Notes: a model not told the origin generated them from the sequence alone. Positions 7,572 through 30,021 are shown, counted from the stretch's first letter. The stretch is DNA of 30,135 nucleotides from a virus (IMGVR_UViG_3300020183_003550:1-30135); one strand, 5' to 3'. A program made the numbers and translations.

Positions 7572-7642
7572 AGTCAGGTGGCGGTATTGGTTATGGCCCG
7601 CTCAGAAATGAGAAAGCACAGGTTCGAATCCTGTCCTGACTA
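7572..7642 (+). ncRNA. tRNA-like structure 1 (Leu-type ends, no normal anticodon arm)
   Basis: The ends form a 7-bp acceptor stem AGTCAGG / CCTGACT with A as discriminator. The T-arm ACAGG-TTCGAAT-CCTGT is perfect. After the acceptor comes TGGCGG-TATTGGT, like the D-arm of tRNA-Leu. Between D and T arms are only about 20 bases, which fold as CTCA-GAAA-TGAG, a tight tetraloop hairpin, so no 7-base anticodon loop exists. The 71-nt element is a tRNA mimic or a decayed tRNA, not an ordinary tRNA. Confidence 0.6.
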
Positions 7643-7851: not shown

Positions 7852-7965
7852 AGTCAGGTGGCGGAATTGGTAGACGCACACAAGATGGGGAAGGCATAAT
7901 AATTGCGAAAAGTCAGTACCCTACAACTTGTTATAGAATTACAGGTTCGAATCCTGTCCTGACTA
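7852..7965 (+). ncRNA. tRNA-like structure 2 (Leu-type D-arm, enlarged anticodon region)
   Basis: The acceptor stem AGTCAGG/CCTGACT and T-arm ACAGG-TTCGAAT-CCTGT are the same as in element 1. The D-arm GCG-GAATTGGTAGA-CGC is a textbook tRNA-Leu D-arm. The stem ACAAG/CTTGT can close the anticodon arm, but its loop holds about 42 bases instead of 7, giving 114 nt in all, some 27 more than a normal tRNA-Leu. Either a small intron-like insert or a non-decoding tRNA mimic is present. CCA is not encoded. Confidence 0.55.
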
Positions 7966-20740: not shown

Positions 20741-20785
20741 CAGGAAACTTTCTTTAAATTTGAGCAGATAATTGTGTATAACTAA
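20741..20785 (+). promoter_or_regulatory. Class II element, copy 1 (divergent) before DUF932 gene
   Basis: TTGAGCAGATAAT at 20760-20772 followed by TGTGTATAACTAAAAA. The upstream box AAGTAAAG is poorly kept (AGGAAACT in this place), with the same 11-base gap. Compare the copies at 23735, 24278, 25460, 27365, 28244 and 29489. Confidence 0.65.
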
Positions 20786-20796
20786 AAATTTAAACT

Positions 20797-21636
20797 ATGT
20801 TACACACACCCCTTCCTGACTTTGGCGGACTGACCAAAGCCAATCTCCAGCAGATGGTACCTCACGCCTTTCGTGAAACTCCGTCTAATCCTAGGTTAAG
20901 TGACAATTATGTTCACGTACCTACCTACGAGGTTATTGACGATCTCGAAAAGCTTGGTTGGTACCCAATGCAAGCCTCTCAGCGAAAGCATCGTAAGGCC
21001 GACAGTATTTTTACAAGCCATATGGTTAAGTTCCGTAACCCTGATCTAAAGATCTCAGGGCAAAAGAGGGATGATAGTTACCCGGAGATAATTCTTTTAA
21101 ATTCTCACGATGGACTTTCCTCTTTTAAATTTATGATTGGACTGTATAGACTTGTTTGTTCGAACGGCTTGATAATTGCTACAGACCAGTTTGCAGATTT
21201 TAAGATCAAGCACATGGGTTATACTTTTGAAGAGTTGAGAGCCATGGTAGAGGGTACTGTACAGGAGTTACCTAATAAGCTGCAGATTTTAAATGAAATG
21301 AAGAATACGGACTTAACTCAAACTCAACAAGAAGAATTTGCAATTAAAGGGTTTTTACTGAGGAGAGGAGTTGTACCGGCAATTGAAAAACCTCTACAGG
21401 ATACCGTAGACCAGGGAACCGTACAGGCCATACTGCAGCCTCAAAGAGAGTCCGATAAGGGAAGTGACCTCTGGGTAACTTATAATAAGGTACAAGAGGC
21501 AGTAATCAATGGAGGATTCCATGGAGCTTTAGCGGGAGCTAGAGTTAGGAAAGTTAAGAAGATAACTAACTTCCATAAGGATATTCAACTCAATAGACAA
21601 TTATTCCAACTAGCTACGGAGTACCTACCGGCGTAA
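20797..21636 (+). CDS. DUF932 protein
   Basis: 279 residues. The pattern YEVIDDLEKLGWYPMQASQRK, then LLNSHDGLSSFKFMIGLYRLVCSNGLI and QEAVINGG is typical of DUF932 proteins of phages and plasmids. The central N-SHDG-x-S...L-R-V-C-x-N-G is the family hallmark (about 107-129). The role is not settled; it is often found near antirestriction or early genes. It opens the right-hand region and ends at a strong terminator. Codon choice is less A-rich than in the left region. Confidence 0.85.
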   Translation: MLHTPLPDFGGLTKANLQQMVPHAFRETPSNPRLSDNYVHVPTYEVIDDLEKLGWYPMQASQRKHRKADSIFTSHMVKFRNPDLKISGQKRDDSYPEIILLNSHDGLSSFKFMIGLYRLVCSNGLIIATDQFADFKIKHMGYTFEELRAMVEGTVQELPNKLQILNEMKNTDLTQTQQEEFAIKGFLLRRGVVPAIEKPLQDTVDQGTVQAILQPQRESDKGSDLWVTYNKVQEAVINGGFHGALAGARVRKVKKITNFHKDIQLNRQLFQLATEYLPA

Positions 21637-21650
21637 GTATTAGGGGGGAA

Positions 21651-21689
21651 GTAGGGCCTTCGGGCCCTATTTCTTTGTTTCTTTTTTTA
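21651..21689 (+). terminator. Rho-independent terminator after DUF932 gene
   Basis: A perfect 7-bp stem TAGGGCC with TTCG tetraloop and GGCCCTA (21652-21669), followed by a T-rich run (TTTCTTTGTTTCTTTTTTT). The GC stem and UUCG loop make this the clearest terminator in the window. Confidence 0.9.
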
Positions 21690-21714
21690 CGTATATTCAT
21701 ATACTTAGAATACT

Positions 21715-22104
21715 ATGCAACTACTCGCCACTCACCCAATTAAGAAGATGGATTTAGGGTTCCATGGAAATCTCTTTGGGGGAAAATTATTAGCGTGGGT
21801 AGATGCTGCCTTAGCAGCTTATGCTATGGAGATATGCCATTCTAAAAATATGGTTACGATATCCATAGATAAATGTATATTTAAGAGACCAGCTAAGGAA
21901 GGTTCGTTATTAAAAATATACGGGAAGTTAATCCGATTGGGTAATACATCAGCTACATTTGATGTTGAGGTTAGGTCATATAATGTGTTTAAAGAAGAAG
22001 AGGTTACTATATTAACTACATCTATGACATTTGTTAGAGTAGATGACGAAGGTGGTCCTATACCAATCTCAGAACAAGTCAAACGAATTTTTAATTCAAA
22101 ATGA
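21715..22104 (+). CDS. Acyl-CoA thioesterase, hot-dog fold (YciA-like)
   Basis: 129 residues. Hot-dog thioesterases hydrolyse acyl-CoA. Evidence: GFHGNLFGGKLLAWVDAALAAY (about 15-36: N-x-x-G-G-x-x-L-x-W-x-D, the active-site motif of YciA-type enzymes), TISIDKCIFKRPAKEGSLL and VRSYN-F. D30 is the likely catalytic residue. No fatty-acid gene is next to it. A free CoA or lipid-rerouting role in the infected cell is possible. The upstream sequence carries a perfect GTATAT-TC-ATATAC palindrome (21691-21704). Confidence 0.85.
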   Translation: MQLLATHPIKKMDLGFHGNLFGGKLLAWVDAALAAYAMEICHSKNMVTISIDKCIFKRPAKEGSLLKIYGKLIRLGNTSATFDVEVRSYNVFKEEEVTILTTSMTFVRVDDEGGPIPISEQVKRIFNSK

Positions 22105-22301
22105 ATCTAGGTGAAATTATACAAATTGAAAGTAACTGGTACCAGGTATACAGAAGTTTAAAAGAGCCAAAACAACTACCTAGCGAAATGGTCTCTGAAT
22201 TAAGACAACTGTATGGATGTACCCATACCTTTCGAAGTGATAGTAAGCTATTCCTTTGTAAAGAAGTTCCTGTTGTAGAATTTGAAGAGATATTAAATTA
22301 A
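22101..22301 (+). CDS. Small hypothetical protein
   Basis: 66 residues, starting MNLGEIIQIESNWYQVYRSL and overlapping the thioesterase stop by 4 bases (ATGA). The middle has a few Cys (GCTHTF, FLCKEV). It is likely part of one operon to 23012. No domain known. Confidence 0.63.
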   Translation: MNLGEIIQIESNWYQVYRSLKEPKQLPSEMVSELRQLYGCTHTFRSDSKLFLCKEVPVVEFEEILN

Positions 22302-22308
22302 ACTATAT

Positions 22309-22599
22309 ATGATAAACTGGTACTACAAACCTTCCGGCTTATGTCCAGTACAATCCGAGGGTATATTCTTGAATTATTATTTCTATTTTAGATCAAGACA
22401 CGATCGAGCAACTATAGATTTTGCTAAAAGCGAAGAAGACTGGAGACAAGAAAAAGTTATTACCTTTACACTGCTAACTACAGAATCACCTAAAGCTGGA
22501 TATCTCCCAAAATGGAAATGTATATTGCTTATATATTGGGGATGTATAAAATTTTTATTTAATAAACATAAGTTATGGAAAACAAATCAAAACAAGTAG
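22309..22599 (+). CDS. Hypothetical protein with C-terminal hydrophobic segment
   Basis: 96 residues. The N-terminus is aromatic (MINWYYKPSGLCPVQSEGIF, then LNYYFYFRSRHDRATIDFA) and a hydrophobic segment lies at about 74-89 (CILLIYWGCIKFLFNK). It may be membrane associated. The last 25 bases overlap the next gene. Function unknown. Confidence 0.63.
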   Translation: MINWYYKPSGLCPVQSEGIFLNYYFYFRSRHDRATIDFAKSEEDWRQEKVITFTLLTTESPKAGYLPKWKCILLIYWGCIKFLFNKHKLWKTNQNK

Positions 22600-22784
22600 A
22601 AAGAATCACAACAAAGATTCAAGAAGGACTCCAAATATGGGAAACAATTGGAGGAACACCAGACATAAAACAGGAATATGAAATTAAACAATTTCCTAAA
22701 ATGTATCATCCCACAGATGATTCAATTAGTATTCCTTTGTTTGTGGATGGTAAAAAAATAGTAGTAGAAATTAAAACAGTTTAA
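22575..22784 (+). CDS. Small hypothetical protein
   Basis: 69 residues, basic N-terminal helix (VERITTKIQEGLQIWETIGG) and beta C-terminus (LFVDGKKIVVEIKTV). Overlap with the gene before; it precedes the UVR-like gene by 3 bases. No recognised domain. Confidence 0.6.
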   Translation: MENKSKQVERITTKIQEGLQIWETIGGTPDIKQEYEIKQFPKMYHPTDDSISIPLFVDGKKIVVEIKTV

Positions 22785-22787
22785 GTT

Positions 22788-23012
22788 ATGACACAAAACG
22801 ACTATGTAGCTGTTATACAAGAACGCTTAGATTGGTGTGTTCAAACTGAACGATACGAAATGGCTGCCCGTCTTAGAGATTTAATTGAATATGAGACAAC
22901 GGAAGATGAGAATGTTAAAAACAAATACTATATGTATTTAGCAAAAAAGTATGCTCCTGATTTTTATGAAGTGGTTAAACATAAGTATGAACCCAAAACT
23001 TTATCAAATTGA
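22788..23012 (+). CDS. Small protein with UvrB/UvrC-like (UVR) helix pair
   Basis: 74 residues. The N-terminal segment (about 8-32) has IQERLDWCVQTERYEMAARL-RD-I, the helical hairpin of the UVR motif (L-x-x-A-x-x-x-E-x-Y-E-x-A-A-x-x-R-D). UVR motifs mediate protein-protein contact in UvrB-UvrC and McsA-Clp systems. Whether it meddles with Clp or DNA repair is unknown. Confidence 0.7.
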   Translation: MTQNDYVAVIQERLDWCVQTERYEMAARLRDLIEYETTEDENVKNKYYMYLAKKYAPDFYEVVKHKYEPKTLSN

Positions 23013-23027
23013 TTCATATTTATTAGT

Positions 23028-23168
23028 ATGGTAACATTTCTCATTATATTACTTATAGTAGTTCCTCTATCTATCAGGTGGGCTAAATCTATTGAATATA
23101 TGAAACAAAATCATTCCGATTACAAAGGATTAGATTTGTTTGATGAAGAAGATAAAAACATGGTGTAG
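23028..23168 (+). CDS. Small single-TM protein
   Basis: 46 residues. One N-terminal TM segment (VTFLIILLIVVPLSI) then a charged tail (RWAKSIEYMKQNH...). Starts 15 bases after the previous stop, without a Shine-Dalgarno. Unknown. Confidence 0.5.
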   Translation: MVTFLIILLIVVPLSIRWAKSIEYMKQNHSDYKGLDLFDEEDKNMV

Positions 23169-23171
23169 GTA

Positions 23172-23279
23172 ATGAGTAAAATACTTCCTACCGTTACTAC
23201 TGAAGTAGATGATGATGATATTAACACCTGGGATGTAACGTTATTAGACGGCCTTGATGATGAACCTGATGATGTTTAA
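23172..23279 (+). CDS. Very small acidic protein
   Basis: 35 residues, MSKILPTVTTEVDDDDINTW then DVTLL...DDEPDDV. Starts 3 bases after the previous stop. The acidic composition resembles DNA-mimic peptides, but the length makes any claim weak. Confidence 0.45.
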   Translation: MSKILPTVTTEVDDDDINTWDVTLLDGLDDEPDDV

Positions 23280-23331
23280 GTTGTAAAAGTTAGTAACCTT
23301 ATCTTATATTATTACGAAGTAATTTCGTAGT

Positions 23332-23727
23332 ATGAATATAGAAAAAGTTACAAGAAAAGAAGTACTCCTTGCTGTTGAATATTGCACTAATACCTTAGGT
23401 CTTTCAAAATACTGTACATCGGCACCTAGCCTTGTTTACATAACAAGTAATAAAATTAAAACTGCCGATAGGGGGTGTTACGATGATGATAATAATAAGA
23501 TATTAGTTTACCGTAAAAGACATCGAAGCGTTGTTGATTTAGCTGATACGATTGTACATGAATATACACACTACCTTCAGGATATGGAGAAGTACACCGA
23601 ACTAGCTCAGGAGTATGACTACGACTTACACCCTTATGAAATAGAAGCTGCAGAGAATGCTAAAAAATATAGATGGGATTGTCGAAGGTATATGGTCAGG
23701 ACTAAAAATAAAATAAAAAAAAAATAG
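23332..23727 (+). CDS. HExxH zinc-metallopeptidase-like protein B
   Basis: 131 residues. HEYTH at 76-80 in TIVHEYTHYLQDME matches the zincin motif, with downstream EIEAAENA (about 104-111) supplying the third-ligand Glu. It is a relative of the 15797-16207 protein, sharing the layout of basic N-terminus, HExxH and C-terminal charged helix. Second copy of this family in one phage. It has a class II element 8 bases after its stop, so the next gene is a new unit. Confidence 0.77.
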   Translation: MNIEKVTRKEVLLAVEYCTNTLGLSKYCTSAPSLVYITSNKIKTADRGCYDDDNNKILVYRKRHRSVVDLADTIVHEYTHYLQDMEKYTELAQEYDYDLHPYEIEAAENAKKYRWDCRRYMVRTKNKIKKK

Positions 23728-23734
23728 GAGCTCT

Positions 23735-23777
23735 AAGTAAAGTTTTTTGAAAGTTGAGCAGATAATAACAAGAACTT
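23735..23777 (+). promoter_or_regulatory. Class II element, copy 2
   Basis: AAGTAAAG at 23735-23742, 11 bases, TTGAGCAGATAAT at 23754-23766, then AACAAGAACTTAAAAA. It precedes the winged-helix gene (ATG 23801). Confidence 0.75.
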
Positions 23778-23800
23778 AAAAACCCTTTAAACTTTTTAAC

Positions 23801-24148
23801 ATGAAACGAACATTAACACGCAGAAGAGAAAACTCAGTCTCTAACAAAGTACTTCTTTGTTTGAGAGAGCATTCAGGAGGTCTTACTCAGGCCGATCTTG
23901 TAAAGTCGCTAGGAGTTAATTATGAAAAAAGCAGACAAGATTCTGCTACTATTCGAACTGCTATTCGACAATTACGGGCGGAAGGCCATATGATTATCGA
24001 TCATCCAATCACTAATCCACTCACCGGTACTACACTAATTAAGAAATACCAACTGGTTAAAAATTCTAAAAAGTTTTATGACTGGTTTGTTAAAAATGCT
24101 GTAGAAACTGGCTTTAGGGTCCGTAAAGGTAGGCCAACAGATAAGTAG
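23801..24148 (+). CDS. Winged-helix DNA-binding protein
   Basis: 115 residues, basic. The N-terminal half reads VSNKVLLCLREHSGGLTQADLVKS then IRTAIRQLRAEGHMI, the helix-turn-helix and wing of a small winged-helix domain (about 13-70). The beta wing is IIDHPITNPLTGTTLIKKY. A transcription regulator or replication initiator domain is likely. It is the gene just before the sigma factor and is followed by a terminator. Confidence 0.75.
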   Translation: MKRTLTRRRENSVSNKVLLCLREHSGGLTQADLVKSLGVNYEKSRQDSATIRTAIRQLRAEGHMIIDHPITNPLTGTTLIKKYQLVKNSKKFYDWFVKNAVETGFRVRKGRPTDK

Positions 24149-24183
24149 GTTTGTGGTTAAACTTACCTGCAAAGAGAGGTTAA

Positions 24184-24226
24184 AAGCATTGGGGGGACTT
24201 ATAATATTCTCCCCTTTGCTTTTTTA
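24184..24226 (+). terminator. Rho-independent terminator after winged-helix gene
   Basis: A long hairpin: AAAAGCA-TT-GGGG on the left and CCCC-TTTGCTTTT on the right, with the T-run in GCTTTTTTA. It separates the winged-helix gene from the sigma-factor unit. Confidence 0.78.
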
Positions 24227-24277
24227 CTATGTCTATAGATACGGTAAATATAAGTCGGGTAAAAAAATCCGAAAGTA

Positions 24278-24323
24278 AAGTAAAGCTTCCCAAGGGTTGA
24301 GCAGATAAAGGTTAACTTAAAAA
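24278..24323 (+). promoter_or_regulatory. Class II element, copy 3, before the sigma-factor gene
   Basis: AAGTAAAG at 24278-24285, 11 bases (CTTCCCAAGGG), TTGAGCAGATAA at 24297-24308, then AGGTTAACTTAAAAA. The last bases of the motif vary (AAAG for AATAG). If the phage sigma factor reads this element, its gene is autoregulated. Confidence 0.72.
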
Positions 24324-24335
24324 TAACCAAATAAT

Positions 24336-25217
24336 ATGAAACAGTTTAAAGTAGGGGAGAGAGTAACTGCTTTTCGAAGCAGGACCAGTAACATTTATTT
24401 CACCGAGGTTGCGGCATTGCCAATGCTGTCTCCGGCTAAGGAAGCTGAAGTAGCTTACAGAGCGCGGGAAGGGGATAAAGAAGCTATAGACCTATTAGTT
24501 AAATCTAATTTAAGGTTTGTTATATCGGTAGCTAAGATGTACGATAATGCTGGGGGGAGGCTCTTAGAGGACTTAATTGCTGTTGGCAATAACGGGTTGA
24601 TAGAAGCAGCTCATAAATTTGACCCGTCAAGAGGCTTTAAGTTTATATCTTTTGCTGTTTGGTATATCAGAAAAGAGATGTTAAAGTATTTGAATAGCCA
24701 TGGGCATATTGCAAAAATACCCGTCACCCATAAACGTATTCAGAGAAAAGCTAGGGAAATATCAGGAGCTATCTTTACGGAAGAAGGTCGAGAGCCTACC
24801 GATCAAGAGATCTTAGAGCGTCTTAGGAAGACCTTAAAGAATTTAGGAGGATTGCAGATGGGGGTTATGAAAGCAGCAATGAGTGTCGGGGAGCATTATG
24901 GTAGTTTAGATGCACCTGCTACTGAAGATGGCGACCTAACTTTTGCAGATCTATTAGCTAATCCTGATTCTGATAATGATTCCGAACACCAAGAAGAAAT
25001 GAATTTGTCGTTGCAAAAGTTGTTAAGCTGTTTAACTCCGCTTGAGAGAGTAGTTATAGAAAAACGATACCTCTCAGGATCATCTGAGTACCCTGAATAC
25101 TCTTCTATTGCCTTAGCTATAGGCTCGGATGTTAAATCTGTTCAAGCTACTGCTGGTAGGGCTTTTAGAAAATTACAACGTTATTCGACCTGTGTAAGTA
25201 ACCCATTTAAATCATAA
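24336..25217 (+). CDS. Phage RNA polymerase sigma-70 family factor
   Basis: 293 residues. Sigma-70 parts: region 1.2 (YFTEVAALPMLSPAKEAEVA), region 2 (about 57-116: NLRFVISVAKMYDNAGGRLL, EDLIAVGNNGLIEAAHKFDP, SRGFKFISFAVWYIRKEM), region 3 (about 127-180), and region 4 (about 228-285: LTPLERVVIEKRYL... SVQATAGRAFRKLQR). Region 2 is close to group 1-2 sigmas, but region 4 is divergent, with an unusual SGSSEYPEYSSIALAIG turn, so its -35 preference should differ. No region 1.1. It would direct host polymerase to phage promoters; the class II elements around it are the natural candidates. Confidence 0.93.
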   Translation: MKQFKVGERVTAFRSRTSNIYFTEVAALPMLSPAKEAEVAYRAREGDKEAIDLLVKSNLRFVISVAKMYDNAGGRLLEDLIAVGNNGLIEAAHKFDPSRGFKFISFAVWYIRKEMLKYLNSHGHIAKIPVTHKRIQRKAREISGAIFTEEGREPTDQEILERLRKTLKNLGGLQMGVMKAAMSVGEHYGSLDAPATEDGDLTFADLLANPDSDNDSEHQEEMNLSLQKLLSCLTPLERVVIEKRYLSGSSEYPEYSSIALAIGSDVKSVQATAGRAFRKLQRYSTCVSNPFKS

Positions 25218-25221
25218 AGAG

Positions 25222-25461
25222 ATGTTAAATTTGTACGATAAACTACGCTCAGACCTTCGAGACAAGCTTCAATCTAATCTCATAAGTTATCCTATCACCG
25301 GAGAAAATCTAGTGGAGAAACTAAAGAAAGAAGATAATTTCTTGCAGTTAAGTTTAGCCGATATGTTTAATCTACTGCACCTTACAGAAAGTCAGATAGA
25401 GTATAAGAAAATACTGCTGGAGTTACGAGAGGTATTTACGACATTTTATACCGAAGAGTAA
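25222..25461 (+). CDS. Small helical protein, paralogue of 28675-28929
   Basis: 79 residues. The pattern NLYDKLRSDLRDKLQ, then YPITGENLVEKLKKEDNFLQ and LSLADMFNLL aligns with the 28675 protein (LYDRLKPETKNILEQ, YPYTYKEMLEELRNKRSLLD). It begins 4 bases after the sigma stop, so it is co-transcribed with it, and may be a sigma partner. Its stop overlaps the next class II element. Confidence 0.68.
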   Translation: MLNLYDKLRSDLRDKLQSNLISYPITGENLVEKLKKEDNFLQLSLADMFNLLHLTESQIEYKKILLELREVFTTFYTEE

Positions 25462-25507
25462 GTAAAGTTCTTCAAAGGTTGAGCAGATAATAGTTAAACT
25501 AAAAAAA
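25460..25507 (+). promoter_or_regulatory. Class II element, copy 4
   Basis: AAGTAAAG at 25460-25467 begins inside the previous stop codon; 11 bases; TTGAGCAGATAAT at 25479-25491; then AGTTAAACTAAAAAAA. The ATG is at 25513. Confidence 0.77.
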
Positions 25508-25512
25508 CTATT

Positions 25513-25797
25513 ATGGAGACATCACAATGGACCAGAGAAGAGTTAATGACTTTTCTTAAACAGTACATTAAGTCCGGAGTACGAACTACGGAAGAATTTT
25601 CTAGTAACAGTCAGGGAGGTGTATGGGTGAGTGGTGAGGATATGTCAGAGTACCAAGGTGCTGTTATTTACGATTACTATGCCGAGGGTTCGTTATACGA
25701 ACTTGGAGTATTGGTTGAATTTGAGAGCATACTCCAACAACACGGCTGGTACTCCGAGTGGTACGATGCAGGAACTGTAATGATTCAACCTGAATAA
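25513..25797 (+). CDS. Acidic hypothetical protein
   Basis: 94 residues, with METSQWTREELMTFLKQYIK at the start, then STEEFSSNSQGGVWVSGEDM-like acidic loops and a W/Y-rich end (GWYSEWYDAGTVMIQPE). It is expressed from a class II element. Small, soluble and acidic, as expected of an early modulator, but unknown. Confidence 0.65.
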   Translation: METSQWTREELMTFLKQYIKSGVRTTEEFSSNSQGGVWVSGEDMSEYQGAVIYDYYAEGSLYELGVLVEFESILQQHGWYSEWYDAGTVMIQPE

Positions 25798-25800
25798 CCT

Positions 25801-25968
25801 ATGAAAGAAGTTCTACGAGATTTACGAGCAGAGATACTTAGCCTGAAAGTTAAGCTGGGTGATAATGGTACCTACGGGTTTATAGATAAGGAGCATTTAG
25901 TAAATGCTAAAATAGAGGCTTTAGAGTGGGCATACAACCTCATTCAAAAGAAAGGAATGACTTTATGA
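25801..25968 (+). CDS. Small helical protein
   Basis: 55 residues: MKEVLRDLRAEILSLKVKLG, DNGTYGFIDKEHLVNAKIEA then LEWAYNLIQKKGMTL. Helix-loop-helix, coiled-coil-like. The ATGA overlap at its stop couples it to the next gene. No Shine-Dalgarno. Confidence 0.6.
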   Translation: MKEVLRDLRAEILSLKVKLGDNGTYGFIDKEHLVNAKIEALEWAYNLIQKKGMTL

Positions 25969-26195
25969 AAGATATAACCTTTATTAGTTTTGATATAAAA
26001 GAGGCTTTAAAACCTCATGTATATGTACTTAAGGTGGGTGGGAGGTATGTAAAGTATACTGAATTTATAACCACAACAGGTACGGTATTTGAAGTACTAA
26101 TACAGGATATGGAAGGGGTGCCTATTGGTGGGGAGGAGTATGAAGTATTAAAAGGAGTACTTAGAGAGTTTGTAGAGGGTGAACTATTAACCTAA
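25965..26195 (+). CDS. Small hypothetical protein
   Basis: 76 residues from the ATG at 25965, which overlaps the preceding stop. Beta-rich N-terminal half (ITFISFDIKEALKPHVYVLK then VGGRYVKYTEF) and acidic C-terminal half. No family recognised. It ends the operon begun at 25513. Confidence 0.6.
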   Translation: MKDITFISFDIKEALKPHVYVLKVGGRYVKYTEFITTTGTVFEVLIQDMEGVPIGGEEYEVLKGVLREFVEGELLT

Positions 26196-26248
26196 AATTT
26201 TTATTAACCCTAGCCTATTTATAGTAAACGTTAAATCAATTGAATAAT

Positions 26249-26431
26249 ATGAAAGATAATTTCGACTTAAAAAAATACTTAACTGAAAACAAACTAACTC
26301 CGTTAAGTAAGCATTCAAAAGAACATCCTGACTTTATTAGTTATAAAGGTGCTAAGTACCGTAGGGTTGGACTTGTAAATGAAAATAGTGAAGCTCCTAC
26401 TTCGGATTCCGTTCTCTTAGATGAAAGGTAA
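26249..26431 (+). CDS. Tag-module protein 1 (FDLKKYLTENKLT and YKGAKYRR)
   Basis: 60 residues. It begins MKDNFDLKKYLTENKLT, a leader I recall in the N-termini of some marine-phage proteins, then carries FISYKGAKYRRV at about 30-41, the same peptide module that opens the next two genes. After the module only a short acidic tail remains (NENSEAPTSDSVLLDER). It may be a tag-only protein. A CCCTAGCCTAT sequence at 26210-26220 precedes it. Confidence 0.65.
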   Translation: MKDNFDLKKYLTENKLTPLSKHSKEHPDFISYKGAKYRRVGLVNENSEAPTSDSVLLDER

Positions 26432-26461
26432 TACCAAATCATTTTTAATTACCCCTAGCCT

Positions 26462-26848
26462 ATGTCCTCAAATCAACCTAAATACATTACCTATAAAGGT
26501 GCTAAGTATCAAAGAATACCTACTCTAAATGAAAATACATTAGGGTTATCGGATGATATGTTGATACAGTTACGTAAATCTAATGGTATTCCTGAACTTA
26601 TGTTAGATAAACAAAGTTGGGAATCTTTATATGACAAATATGGTGACGAATTATTAAAAGGGGACCCGAGAACCGTTAGTTATGAAGATTTTAACCAAGA
26701 AATTGAAAACACCGGAAAAAGAAAGATAGAACAGTATCGTTCCATGTATGAAAAAATGAAATCTGTATCACATAAAAGTAGAAATATAAAAAGTAGAGAT
26801 TTTCAAACAACGTTTAATCGTTATAAAGATGACCTCAAATCAACCTAA
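26462..26848 (+). CDS. Tag-module protein 2 with unrelated helical C-terminus
   Basis: 128 residues. N-terminal module SNQPKYITYKGAKYQRIPTL-NE (about 3-24), followed by an unrelated helical, charged C-terminus (SWESLYDKYGDELLKGDPRT, then KRKIEQYRSMYEKMKSV). The ATG lies within a CCCTAGCCTAT repeat (26453-26463). It overlaps the next gene by 20 bases. The function is unknown; the module may be a targeting peptide. Confidence 0.68.
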   Translation: MSSNQPKYITYKGAKYQRIPTLNENTLGLSDDMLIQLRKSNGIPELMLDKQSWESLYDKYGDELLKGDPRTVSYEDFNQEIENTGKRKIEQYRSMYEKMKSVSHKSRNIKSRDFQTTFNRYKDDLKST

Positions 26849-27320
26849 ATACATTACCTACAGAGGTGCTAAGTACGAAAGAATACCTACACTAAATGAA
26901 ATAAAAGTAGATCCTACTCCCGGTCTCTTTTATACCTTATTTAAGGACCAAGATGACGATCATTTATTAACTTTTAAAGGTTACATAACTACACCGAATC
27001 GGAGCCGGACTGCATTAGAAGCATTTAAAAAATGGTTCGACGAGTCAGGTGAAAAAAATAGAGAGAGAATTTTCAATATAGACGCCCAGGATGGACGAGA
27101 CGCGGAAGATGCGGAGGATTTTCTTAGAAACTCAGGTATTGAACATGAAGAGAACCGAATGATAGAACTTAACGGTAAGACTCTTAAAGTTGATGTACTT
27201 CGTAACCCTGTAGAGATACCAACCTATTTTATCTTCTATGGCAAGCTATCGCAGGAAGATATTAATGACATAGTGTATATGGGTGTCTACGGTGTATTTG
27301 ACCTCATAGATGGACAGTAG
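26829..27320 (+). CDS. Tag-module protein 3 with unrelated C-terminus
   Basis: 163 residues. The first 24 are near-identical to the previous protein: SNQPKYITYRGAKYERIPTL-NE. The rest (residues 30-163) is different: a beta/alpha domain with FYTLFKDQDDDHLLTFKGYI and IPTYFIFYGKLSQEDINDIV. The nucleotide match in the first 70 bases (26829-26900 against 26462-26533) is high, so the module was copied recently. Function unknown. Confidence 0.7.
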   Translation: MTSNQPKYITYRGAKYERIPTLNEIKVDPTPGLFYTLFKDQDDDHLLTFKGYITTPNRSRTALEAFKKWFDESGEKNRERIFNIDAQDGRDAEDAEDFLRNSGIEHEENRMIELNGKTLKVDVLRNPVEIPTYFIFYGKLSQEDINDIVYMGVYGVFDLIDGQ

Positions 27321-27364
27321 TACTAAAACATTACATCAAGCTAACTGATTTAATTCTGTAATAA

Positions 27365-27412
27365 AAGTAAAGCTCTTCAAAGGTTGAGCAGATAATAGTT
27401 AAACTAAAAAAC
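27365..27412 (+). promoter_or_regulatory. Class II element, copy 5
   Basis: AAGTAAAG at 27365-27372, 11 bases, TTGAGCAGATAAT at 27384-27396, then AGTTAAACTAAAAA. It matches copy 4 nearly throughout and precedes the gene at 27417. Confidence 0.78.
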
Positions 27413-27416
27413 TATT

Positions 27417-27629
27417 ATGAGACAACCTAAACAAAAATCTCCGTACATAAGTACGGGGGGTATCAATCATGAAGAATTGGTACTTGGTAAGCATGTTGCT
27501 ACTCTTAAAGACATCAAAGCAGACCCTATACTCTATGCCGATCTGGTGTTAGACCTGCTGGCTTATTGGCAGCTAGGTACTAAAGAGACTCAGACTATGA
27601 GATACTTTAAGGACTTTTTTAATAAATAA
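27417..27629 (+). CDS. Small protein, paralogue of 29755-30021
   Basis: 70 residues. The core HVATLKDIKADPILYADLVL then DLLAYWQLGTKET aligns with APTLEDIKNDPEFYAELVND-LMYHWIYGTRET of the 29755 protein. Only this core of some 35 residues is shared; the ends differ. Both are first or second genes behind class II elements. Unknown function. Confidence 0.68.
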   Translation: MRQPKQKSPYISTGGINHEELVLGKHVATLKDIKADPILYADLVLDLLAYWQLGTKETQTMRYFKDFFNK

Positions 27630-27633
27630 AAGT

Positions 27634-27786
27634 ATGAAAAACACATCCAACCCCCCTTATCGTTTATTAAAGCAAATTATGTCTTTAAGTTTAACGAAGT
27701 ACGAAAAATTTCAACGATTGCAAAATTTAGGATATTACCTGGATTGCTATTTACATATGGGGCAACTAAGAAGTAAAAAGGTATGA
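27634..27786 (+). CDS. Small basic protein
   Basis: 50 residues, basic: MKNTSNPPYRLLKQIMSLSL then TKYEKFQRLQNLGYYLDCYL. Ends RSKKV. The stop overlaps the start of the next ORF (ATGA). Unknown. Confidence 0.55.
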   Translation: MKNTSNPPYRLLKQIMSLSLTKYEKFQRLQNLGYYLDCYLHMGQLRSKKV

Positions 27787-28049
27787 AACCAAAAGAAGAC
27801 TTTATTACCCATATTGAAAATCTCATTGACGAGAAAATGGAGCGTATCATCGGTAAACCTGATTATAGCTCGGGTTATAGCCCCTTTCTAGATAGATTTA
27901 TGGTGAGCTATTAAGATGGTGACCCTGAAAGTTCTAGTGAAATAGCAAATCAAGTAGTCGAGTTTGTGAATAATAGTCTAGAAAGAAATATAGTTCAAAT
28001 AGGAAACTATACCAGGGCCCAATTTTGGTTAACCCACAATATAAAGTAA
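27783..28049 (+). pseudogene. ORF split by an in-frame TAA (27912-27914)
   Basis: From the ATG at 27783 the frame codes 43 residues (MKPKEDFITHIENLIDEKME...DRFMVSY), stops at TAA 27912-27914, then stays open in the same frame for 44 more codons (DGDPESSSEIANQVVEFVNN...AQFWLTHNIK) to TAA 28047-28049. No start codon follows the first stop closely. The two halves would form one 88-residue soluble protein. A nonsense mutation, a sequencing error, or readthrough/recoding are all possible. TAA is used as a stop elsewhere, so codon reassignment is unlikely. Confidence 0.55.
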
Positions 28050-28058
28050 AATAGCAAC

Positions 28059-28211
28059 ATGCAAAAACAAAATAAAAACACAATCAATTCATTCAGCACA
28101 ACATTCGTTTCAGTGTTAGGACAACTCATTATAGGGTTGCTCTTAATGACGATTATTTTTGCGGTGGCAGTTCTTGTAAATCCTGATATTGTAAAGCCAT
28201 GGGTAGAGTAG
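28059..28211 (+). CDS. Small single-TM protein
   Basis: 50 residues. Polar N-terminus (MQKQNKNTINSFSTT), one long TM segment (FVSVLGQLIIGLLLMTIIFA and on), and a short tail (NPDIVKPWVE). A holin- or inhibitor-like small membrane peptide by shape. Unknown. Confidence 0.58.
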   Translation: MQKQNKNTINSFSTTFVSVLGQLIIGLLLMTIIFAVAVLVNPDIVKPWVE

Positions 28212-28243
28212 GGGAATAATAGTTTGAAGTTAATTGGTATATT

Positions 28244-28291
28244 AAGTAAAGCTCTTCAAAGGTTGAGCAGATAATAGTTAAACTAAAAAAT
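28244..28291 (+). promoter_or_regulatory. Class II element, copy 6
   Basis: AAGTAAAG at 28244-28251, 11 bases, TTGAGCAGATAAT at 28263-28275, then AGTTAAACTAAAAAA. It precedes the gene at 28302. Confidence 0.78.
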
Positions 28292-28301
28292 CTTTAATCC
28301 A

Positions 28302-28478
28302 ATGACACCTACCCTAACCTCGCGTCAATTCATTAAGTGGCGACTATCTATCCGCCAGGAACTTAAAAGTGCAACTCTTCCTTCCTACGGAGAAGTTATC
28401 AGAGAGTATACTGTTAATTGGAAGCTTTATAAAGACTACCTAGTAGTTAAGGATAATCAACAAGCTATTAAAATTTAA
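28302..28478 (+). CDS. Small basic protein
   Basis: 58 residues: MTPTLTSRQFIKWRLSIRQE then LKSATLPSYGEVIREYTVNW and KLYKDYLVV. Basic and helical with aromatic residues. First gene of a class II unit of about five small genes (28302-29475). Unknown. Confidence 0.6.
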   Translation: MTPTLTSRQFIKWRLSIRQELKSATLPSYGEVIREYTVNWKLYKDYLVVKDNQQAIKI

Positions 28479-28489
28479 TAACAGCTACT

Positions 28490-28660
28490 ATGTCAGAATT
28501 AAAACTACAGGAGGCTATAACTTTGTTCGGAGCAGAACTAGTTAACCAAGTTATTGAAATAGTTGACATGTCCGATGCCGATAGTGCGTATAGCCTCTAC
28601 GAGGATCTTGGACATTTTGAACATGCTGAATGTATAAGCTTACTTTACTTTGAAGACTAA
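28490..28660 (+). CDS. Small acidic protein
   Basis: 56 residues, very acidic: MSELKLQEAITLFGAELVNQ, VIEIVDMSDADSAYSLYEDL then GHFEHAECISLLYFED. Two amphipathic helices. Unknown. Confidence 0.58.
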   Translation: MSELKLQEAITLFGAELVNQVIEIVDMSDADSAYSLYEDLGHFEHAECISLLYFED

Positions 28661-28674
28661 ATTTTAAAAACCTT

Positions 28675-28929
28675 ATGAAATACCAACACCTTTATGATCG
28701 TCTCAAGCCTGAGACTAAAAACATCCTTGAACAGGAGGCAGCAGTTTACCCCTATACCTATAAAGAAATGTTAGAGGAGTTGAGAAATAAACGTTCTCTT
28801 CTAGACTTATCCTATAATACTGTTCGACTCTTTGCAGGTATATCGGCATTACATCCTATCATGGGGACTCCAAACTTTACGGAAGCTTTTTTGTTTCAAA
28901 ACTGGATTAAACTCTTTGAAGAAAACTAA
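28675..28929 (+). CDS. Small helical protein, paralogue of 25222-25461
   Basis: 84 residues. The first 55 align with the 25222 protein: QHLYDRLKPETKNILEQEAA, VYPYTYKEMLEELRNKRSLL. The C-terminal tail (GTPNFTEAFLFQNWIKLFEEN) is different. One copy lies directly behind the sigma gene, this one in a different class II unit. Unknown function, probably binding to a shared partner. Confidence 0.68.
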   Translation: MKYQHLYDRLKPETKNILEQEAAVYPYTYKEMLEELRNKRSLLDLSYNTVRLFAGISALHPIMGTPNFTEAFLFQNWIKLFEEN

Positions 28930-28930
28930 T

Positions 28931-29149
28931 ATGATAGTACCTAAATCAGAACGCCGAGTAAATCTCGAAATAGACCTAACAGGTCCTCAAGGTAATGCCT
29001 TTTACCTGCTCGGTACTGCCCGCACCCTAGCTCGTCAAATAAGCAAAGATCCTAACCCTATTATTGATCAAATGATGGCAGGAGATTATGAGAATCTAGT
29101 TGAGGTATTTGATCGAGAATTTGGCGACTTTGTTACGTTAATAAGGTAA
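28931..29149 (+). CDS. Conserved small phage protein
   Basis: 72 residues from the ATG at 28931. The motif VNLEIDLTGPQGNAFYLLGT at about 10-29 resembles a common small protein of large phages, in which D-x-S-G-P-x-G-N-A-F-x-L is conserved. Function unknown. It begins 1 base after the preceding stop. Confidence 0.66.
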   Translation: MIVPKSERRVNLEIDLTGPQGNAFYLLGTARTLARQISKDPNPIIDQMMAGDYENLVEVFDREFGDFVTLIR

Positions 29150-29160
29150 AAAACACTGAA

Positions 29161-29475
29161 ATGAAAACATATAAACAATACCAACAAGTAGTTCTGGAAT
29201 GCGATGAAGGGTACGTCGATGTAGTATTTAAGGTTGAATATAGCCTTGAGAATGACGGAATCGGAACATATGAGTTCTGGGGGTCTCAAGAGTTTGACCA
29301 CGGTCGAACTTATTCCGTTATCGAGAATCTAACTTGGGATAGAGATAAGCATAGCCCCCAGGAGAACACGTCTATTGAAAAGTATCTAGAAGATATGTCT
29401 AATTATGCTCATCTGGATGAAGAGCTCTGTAAGAGATTGGATGAAGGTTTAATAGACATGGGTCCGGATGAGTAG
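29161..29475 (+). CDS. Acidic hypothetical protein
   Basis: 104 residues, beta-rich first half (EGYVDVVFKVEYSLENDGIG and TYEFWGSQEF) and helical acidic second half (HLDEELCKRLDEGLIDMGPD). Last gene of its unit; a class II element follows its stop. Unknown. Confidence 0.63.
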   Translation: MKTYKQYQQVVLECDEGYVDVVFKVEYSLENDGIGTYEFWGSQEFDHGRTYSVIENLTWDRDKHSPQENTSIEKYLEDMSNYAHLDEELCKRLDEGLIDMGPDE

Positions 29476-29488
29476 CTTCCGGTAATCA

Positions 29489-29536
29489 AAGTAAACTTTT
29501 AAAAAGGTTGAGCAGATAATAGTTAAACTAAAAAAA
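29489..29536 (+). promoter_or_regulatory. Class II element, copy 7
   Basis: AAGTAAAC at 29489-29496, 11 bases, TTGAGCAGATAAT at 29508-29520, then AGTTAAACTAAAAAAA. It precedes the gene at 29541. Confidence 0.76.
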
Positions 29537-29540
29537 AGTT

Positions 29541-29744
29541 ATGAAAAATTGGACAAAAGCACAGCTTGATAAAGAGTTAAAAGATCTCAGAGATGGAGTT
29601 AGAGATGCTGGTGATATAGATGCTTCGATGGTATTTGATATCGCTAATGGATGGTTGATGGATAATCCCGGGGTAGAGATCGCTATTGAGGAACACTACA
29701 ATGCTTCAGATGTACAAGGTTTCGTAGCAAACCGAATTATCTAA
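29541..29744 (+). CDS. Small acidic protein
   Basis: 67 residues. Helical N-terminus (KNWTKAQLDKELKDLRDGVR) and acidic middle (DAGDIDASMVFDIANGW). First gene behind copy 7. Unknown. Confidence 0.62.
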   Translation: MKNWTKAQLDKELKDLRDGVRDAGDIDASMVFDIANGWLMDNPGVEIAIEEHYNASDVQGFVANRII

Positions 29745-29754
29745 AATAAAAGTT

Positions 29755-30021
29755 ATGACAAAAGAAAACAATCCGTACATTGATGCTAATAGAATCGATC
29801 GTAGACAGCAAATCGAAGATGCGTATGCGCCAACGCTTGAAGACATCAAAAATGACCCTGAGTTCTATGCTGAATTAGTTAATGATTTAATGTATCATTG
29901 GATATATGGGACACGAGAAACTAGATTGATGTTTTTAGCTAAAGAATCTTTGTTGATTAGTCATGGAAGAGTAGATGATTTAATGTCATATTATGACGAC
30001 GTATACGAATTAAATAAATAA
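29755..30021 (+). CDS. Small protein, paralogue of 27417-27629
   Basis: 88 residues. The core YAPTLEDIKNDPEFYAELVN-DLMYHWIYGTRET matches the 27417 protein, followed by an extra C-terminal helix (ESLLISHGRVDDLMSYYDDVYE). Its leader AATAAAAGTTATGACAAAA recurs before the next gene, which suggests a local duplication of start regions. Unknown. Confidence 0.68.
   Translation: MTKENNPYIDANRIDRRQQIEDAYAPTLEDIKNDPEFYAELVNDLMYHWIYGTRETRLMFLAKESLLISHGRVDDLMSYYDDVYELNK

Follow-up and report, generated by a model that had tools for sequence, protein, structure and literature searches.

A rigid promoter-like element and its putative reader, a phage-encoded sigma factor, in a genome fragment of a Bacteroidota-type phage

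Bacteroidota promoters are unlike those of E. coli, and little is known of how the phages of these bacteria take over transcription. The DNA analysed here, referred to as the window, is a whole IMG/VR record of 30,135 bases, which is a fragment of a viral genome; the counts given below cover this fragment. A repeated two-box element, AAGTAAAG-N11-TTGAGCAGATAAT, stands upstream of phage genes in the window, around a gene at 24336 for a sigma-70-like protein, and this arrangement raises two questions: whether the element is a promoter, and which protein reads it. A preliminary description of the same DNA had proposed a promoter-like element read by the 24336 protein.

When up to three mismatches are allowed, the pattern matches at seven places in the window, all on the plus strand (chance expectation 0.01; no shuffled sequence gave seven), and these are the seven positions listed previously:

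20741..20772, plus strand, copy 1: diverged upstream box CAGGAAAC, three mismatches; heads the DUF932 gene
23735..23766, plus strand, copy 2: exact, with GATAAT at 23761-23766; heads the winged-helix-like gene
24278..24309, plus strand, copy 3: final base of the -10 altered (GATAAA); heads the sigma gene
25460..25491, plus strand, copy 4: exact; heads the 25513 gene group, and the L004 ortholog is likewise headed by the element
27365..27396, plus strand, copy 5: exact; heads the 27417 gene
28244..28275, plus strand, copy 6: exact; heads the 28302 gene
29489..29520, plus strand, copy 7: carries AAGTAAAC; heads the 29541 gene

The pattern has 21 fixed bases, all of them matched by the four exact copies. 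The 11-base gap between the boxes, earlier reported as exact in six clear copies, is exact in all seven, and the copy at 20741, earlier called divergent, is diverged in sequence only, since it lies on the same strand as the others. From the end of the element to the start codon, the distances are 24, 34, 26, 21, 20, 26 and 20 bases for copies 1 to 7, within the 15-50 bases first estimated; the probability that all seven copies in the window would fall 20-35 bases ahead of a correctly oriented start is ~1e-12. Additionally, of the eight intergenic gaps in the 23.7-30.1 kb region that exceed 45 bases, six contain a copy, and the pattern scan of the window returned none left of 20.7 kb, as had been noted. 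With a weight matrix trained on the window sites and one site from another viral contig, L004, the element sites score 31-36 bits and the rest of the window scores below 8. Mean pairwise identity is 0.88 and 0.98 in the two boxes, 0.61 in the spacer and 0.32 in the 40-base upstream flank, a pattern as for protein-contacted boxes held in fixed helical phase.

The genes headed by the element are as follows:

20797..21636, plus strand: DUF932 protein, with orthologs in 54 immuto-like contigs, where promoters are of host type
23801..24148, plus strand: 115-aa protein with weak winged-helix/HTH similarity, a candidate regulator and rival reader
24336..25217, plus strand: RpoD-like sigma factor of 293 aa with regions 1.2-4, the proposed element reader
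25513..25797, plus strand: 94-aa protein, no assigned function, 84% identical in L004
27417..27629, plus strand: 70-aa protein, no assigned function, paralog of 29755
28302..28478, plus strand: 58-aa protein, no assigned function
29541..29744, plus strand: 67-aa protein, no assigned function

Spread of the element by gene duplication was considered and rejected, since most of the genes that it heads are unrelated; the one match is that of 27417 to 29755, which is itself without the element. In the same region, the stretch 27784-28045 is a frame with one in-frame TAA (27913-27915) followed by about 44 open codons, a broken or split gene.

The host appears to be a marine or freshwater Bacteroidota-type bacterium. 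Window proteins match those of Flavobacterium phage immuto (DUF932, 51%; GroEL, 46%; the protein at the endolysin position, 55%; holin, 56%; thioesterase, 60%), and L004 runs into a T4-type (gp23) capsid gene that is 52% identical to that of immuto. These matches together place the phage probably in or near the immuto group, T4-like phages of Flavobacteriia. The first 20-29 residues of the protein at 26249 (26249-26335) match the N-termini of the immuto proteins 117631, 118635, 1806 and 103806 at 52-67% identity, as if these proteins had a short N-terminal tag in common. Two tRNA-like stretches, at 7572-7642 and 7852-7965, score above the Rfam gathering threshold (34 and 40 bits), and ARAGORN calls neither; the latter, of 114 bases, is perhaps interrupted or degenerate. 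The left half also holds three copies (6776, 7120 and 15273) of a repeat, TAT[AG]GGTTTTCTGT[TA]GTATATTTACTAT, with a host-type -7 box inside.

Codon usage and start-site style shift sharply at about 20.75 kb (20797-30021 compared with 123-20709), where SD-like GGAG start sites on the left give way to A-rich ones on the right, and in L004 the same contrast separates the sigma module from the capsid genes. The shift may reflect a module of foreign origin or, with lower probability, a join made in assembly. The absence of the element on the left side could be put down to an assembly chimera at 20.8 kb, an explanation made less likely by the L004 contrast and by the gene order of relatives, in which the left-half genes 16352 (L176, L177 and L181) and 19479 (L145, L147 and L148) lie beside DUF932.

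The position of the DUF932 gene, the only headed gene with many relatives, provides a test of promoter function. In the 54 other viral contigs that carry this gene, which yield 38 distinct upstream sequences, TA[TC][AC]TTNN stands 15-36 bases before the ATG in 38 of 38, and most have TTG exactly 20 bases further upstream (TTG-N20-TA[TC][AC]TT). These boxes agree with the published TTTG/TAnnTTTG promoter read by the Bacteroidota primary sigma (PMC7366714). In the window, the element occupies this place, with GATAAT ending 24 bases before the ATG. DUF932 would offer a natural case of a switch from host to phage control between close relatives. The element itself is no TAnnTTTG box with TTG or TTTG about 20 bases upstream, and six copies have GATAAT instead. 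The mismatch to the host pattern claimed at the outset holds without qualification for six copies; copy 1 is overlapped by an exact host -7 box, TAAATTTG, at 20755-20762. Owing to this overlap, DUF932 may be dual-controlled or mainly host-read, and copy 1 is a possible intermediate between a host and a phage promoter.

Could the element instead be a conserved leader, an operator or some other repeat, such as a riboswitch-like RNA, a silencer, or a replication or packaging site? Partial conservation does run about 16 bases past GATAAT, into an A-rich leader, as such a reading would have it. Against it, the aligned copies share no conserved RNA fold (-0.68 kcal/mol, with no compensatory change), and no conserved dyad or hairpin was found in them; the paired, covarying fold of a structured RNA leader is thus absent. 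The confinement to one strand, the fixed place before starts and the position taken by host promoters in relatives likewise speak against this explanation, to which we give very little credence. The DUF932 position test, the rigid spacing and placement, and the absent RNA structure together argue that the element is very probably a promoter, in keeping with the original description of it as promoter-like.

The candidate reader of such a promoter is the protein at 24336. Sigma-70 regions are detected in it (Sigma70_r2, 1.5e-13), its predicted structure matches solved sigma factors over the whole length, and the helix-turn-helix of region 4 is confidently modelled (pLDDT 81-94); it has both the polymerase-binding region 2 and the DNA-reading domains. 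A phylogeny that includes cellular Bacteroidota sigmas places it, together with the L004 sigma, within a phage-only clade (support 98/93 and 96/95). Region 2.4 reads WYIRK in the 24336 protein, compared with WWIRQ in cellular sigmas and W[YH]IRK in the phage clade. The recognition helix of region 4 is SDVKSVQATAGRAFRKL, compared with LTRERVRQIKEKAIRRL in cellular sigmas, and within region 4.2 the cellular LTRERVRQIKEKA is changed to SDVKSVQATAGRA, whereas L004 keeps VQAT. By analogy with E. coli sigma-70, we take the altered residues of regions 2.4 and 4.2 to be those that read the opening base of the -10 and the -35 box, respectively. Region 4 had been called divergent; this is true of its recognition helix, while the region is intact in the predicted structure.

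Elsewhere in IMG/VR, an exact copy of the element was found only in L004, where it adjoins a sigma gene whose product is 67% identical. Both the element and the sigma are absent from the immuto genome, the 54 DUF932 contigs and 79 related-capsid contigs (about 130 contigs from the same phage group), and searches of the large phages that carry sigmas likewise gave no copy of the element. Three other loose matches (L005-L007) fall in coding DNA and were rejected as chance matches. As the pair is present in only two contigs, the window and L004, its co-occurrence amounts to one evolutionary event, and the association is strong but single. This co-occurrence and the sigma architecture make the 24336 protein the most likely reader of the element, and we consider that it probably is; the proposal made initially thereby gains these two lines of support, and the reading itself is our inference. 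A further sigma, or an activator, may be encoded in the phage genome beyond the fragment.

Two other readers deserve to be weighed. In an arrangement like that of T4 middle promoters, a phage protein, perhaps the 23801 product, would bind AAGTAAAG and recruit polymerase carrying the host sigma to the -10. T4 promoters do allow the -35 box to be replaced by an activator box (the MotA box at -30; PMC6024815), and gene 23801 stands shortly before the sigma gene and carries a copy of the element itself. Its similarity to HTH_11 is below the cut-off (E 0.0026), and the AlphaFold model of the protein alone is of low confidence, too poor for use. The Bacteroidota host sigma reads TAnnTTTG (PMC7366714), however, so that GATAAT is unfit for it and more than recruitment would be needed; the distance between the boxes is fixed to the base; and the phage sigma, whose region 4 is intact and whose reading residues are changed, would be left without a target. 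We therefore regard an activator as unlikely. The promoter could also be read by another phage sigma, for example a gp55-like one, whose gene lies beyond the contig, in which case the 24336 protein would read something else: gp55 serves late promoters in T4-like phages (PMC6024815), and each of the jumbo relatives with sigmas has three proteins with sigma-70 region 2. A gp55-like factor, however, lacks a region 4 for the upstream box that the element has, no second sigma is convincing in immuto-like phages (two weak matches, E 7e-4), and the element and the 24336 sigma are adjacent and co-occurring, which renders this explanation more improbable still.

Sigmas from the same clade as the 24336 protein are present in four phages of 290-430 kb (G008, loci L183-L200; G001, L201-L215; G009, L216-L234; G010, L235-L254), and in these GATATATA forms a second promoter class about 20 bases before the ATG. 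It occurs in 35, 33, 43 and 45 upstream regions, compared with 0.8-1.8 expected, and almost never together with a host-type box. Another motif, GATAAATA, was found in two other phages, and GATA-type classes were absent from immuto and 12 relatives, the group without the sigma. The sigma gene has a host-type promoter in the five nearest of these large phages. The common GATA start across the clade is suggestive, and its G would be explained by the replacement of Gln with Lys at the residue that contacts the first base of the -10. That this clade of Bacteroidota-phage sigmas (region 2.4 FISFAVW[YH]IRKE) reads non-host promoters with a -10 starting with GATA is nevertheless a tentative idea, which we would at present rather doubt. 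The GATATATA class was dropped as proof of GATA reading because G001, G008, G009, G010 and G011 each have three sigma-70 region 2 proteins (~300, 207-231 and 121-148 aa). Near another phage sigma, in L036 (5215-5924) and likewise in L042, a short repeat, TTGCTATACACAAT, stands before small genes; it was too weak to be retained as a repeated element.

We favour, with reasonable confidence, the reading of the element as a phage-specific promoter recognized by host core polymerase with the 24336 sigma. GTAAAG within AAGTAAAG would be the -35 and GATAAT the -10, with 18 bases between them, and the predicted transcript would begin 6-8 bases past GATAAT, leaving a leader of roughly 13-28 bases, A-rich like other leaders of Bacteroidota phages. 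Recognition of the element by the transcription machinery of the bacterium would not be expected. Host polymerase would first transcribe genes with host-type promoters, which are found in the window at, for example, 5352, 10034, 18460 and 21687; the phage sigma (24336-25217) would then direct host core polymerase to the element, with a timing that we would place at middle or delayed early. The regulon would comprise DUF932 and the block of small genes that begins at 23.8 kb and runs past the end of the contig. Structural genes are probably outside it, as the scaffold and capsid genes of L004, 1.6 kb downstream of the last element, have no element of their own.

The sigma gene does carry its own copy, as first described, at 24278, and through it the sigma could amplify its own synthesis. 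This copy has the weakest -10 and the sole -10 change among the seven (GATAAA), which is odd for a self-amplifying promoter and counts against the proposal; GATAAA could keep the sigma level low. The sequence immediately in front of the sigma gene showed no promoter of host type, so the first sigma would have to come from read-through or from an unrecognised promoter. A phage sigma with a sharp, easily found promoter would open transcriptional takeover to direct testing in an aquatic phage group that is very common, and might supply an orthogonal promoter-sigma pair for Bacteroidota genetics.

Among known systems, the Bacteroidota RpoD (sigma-ABfr) is the likely origin of the phage sigma, with which it shares the short architecture and the M(K/R)Q(L/F)K start, while its reading residues and promoter boxes differ from those of the phage sigma and the element. 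RpoD-like sigmas are known in jumbo phages of the T4-like group (PMC7824862), and the literature searched describes no promoter for the RpoD-like sigma of Bacteroidota phages. Immuto and its relatives, of the same phage group and with the same A-rich leaders, use host-type promoters throughout and have no such sigma or element. T4 resembles the window phage in its capsid lineage (the L004 capsid being gp23-type) and in using phage proteins to redirect host polymerase. Its late promoters, served by gp55, consist of the -10 (TATA box) TATAAATA alone, without an upstream box (PMC6024815), unlike GATAAT with a fixed upstream box. Its middle promoters use an activator (PMC6024815) and need MotA/AsiA and the host sigma, which the -10 of the element misfits, with 23801 as a weak HTH candidate for the activator.

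Phages of the phiEco32 type come closer. In phiEco32 itself, the sigma gp36 lacks region 4 and has its own promoter class too, the single box tAATGTAtA (PMC8948821), which the missing region 4 explains; the window fits the same rule, since region 4 and the upstream box are both present. In phiEco32-like phages, the sigma gene is served both by a host promoter and by one of the sigma's own class (PMC4331800). Eight promoters of the form GTAAtg-(16)-aCTA are known in phage 7-11, whose own sigma reads them (PMC8948821). This phiEco32-like sigma, SaPh711_gp47, is likewise of the sigma-70 family, works with host core on bipartite phage-specific promoters, and has a -35-like GTAAtg close to the GTAAAG of the window element. 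The two systems differ in spacing (16 compared with 18), in the downstream box (aCTA compared with GATAAT), in host (E. coli/Salmonella type) and in the genes served, late genes in phage 7-11 and small genes without assigned function in the window, and the sigmas are not closely related. Takeover by a phage's own sigma with matching promoters is known from a few other phages; by this analogy, the element and its sigma would be of a known kind, with phage 7-11 as the direct precedent and a switch sequence that is new.
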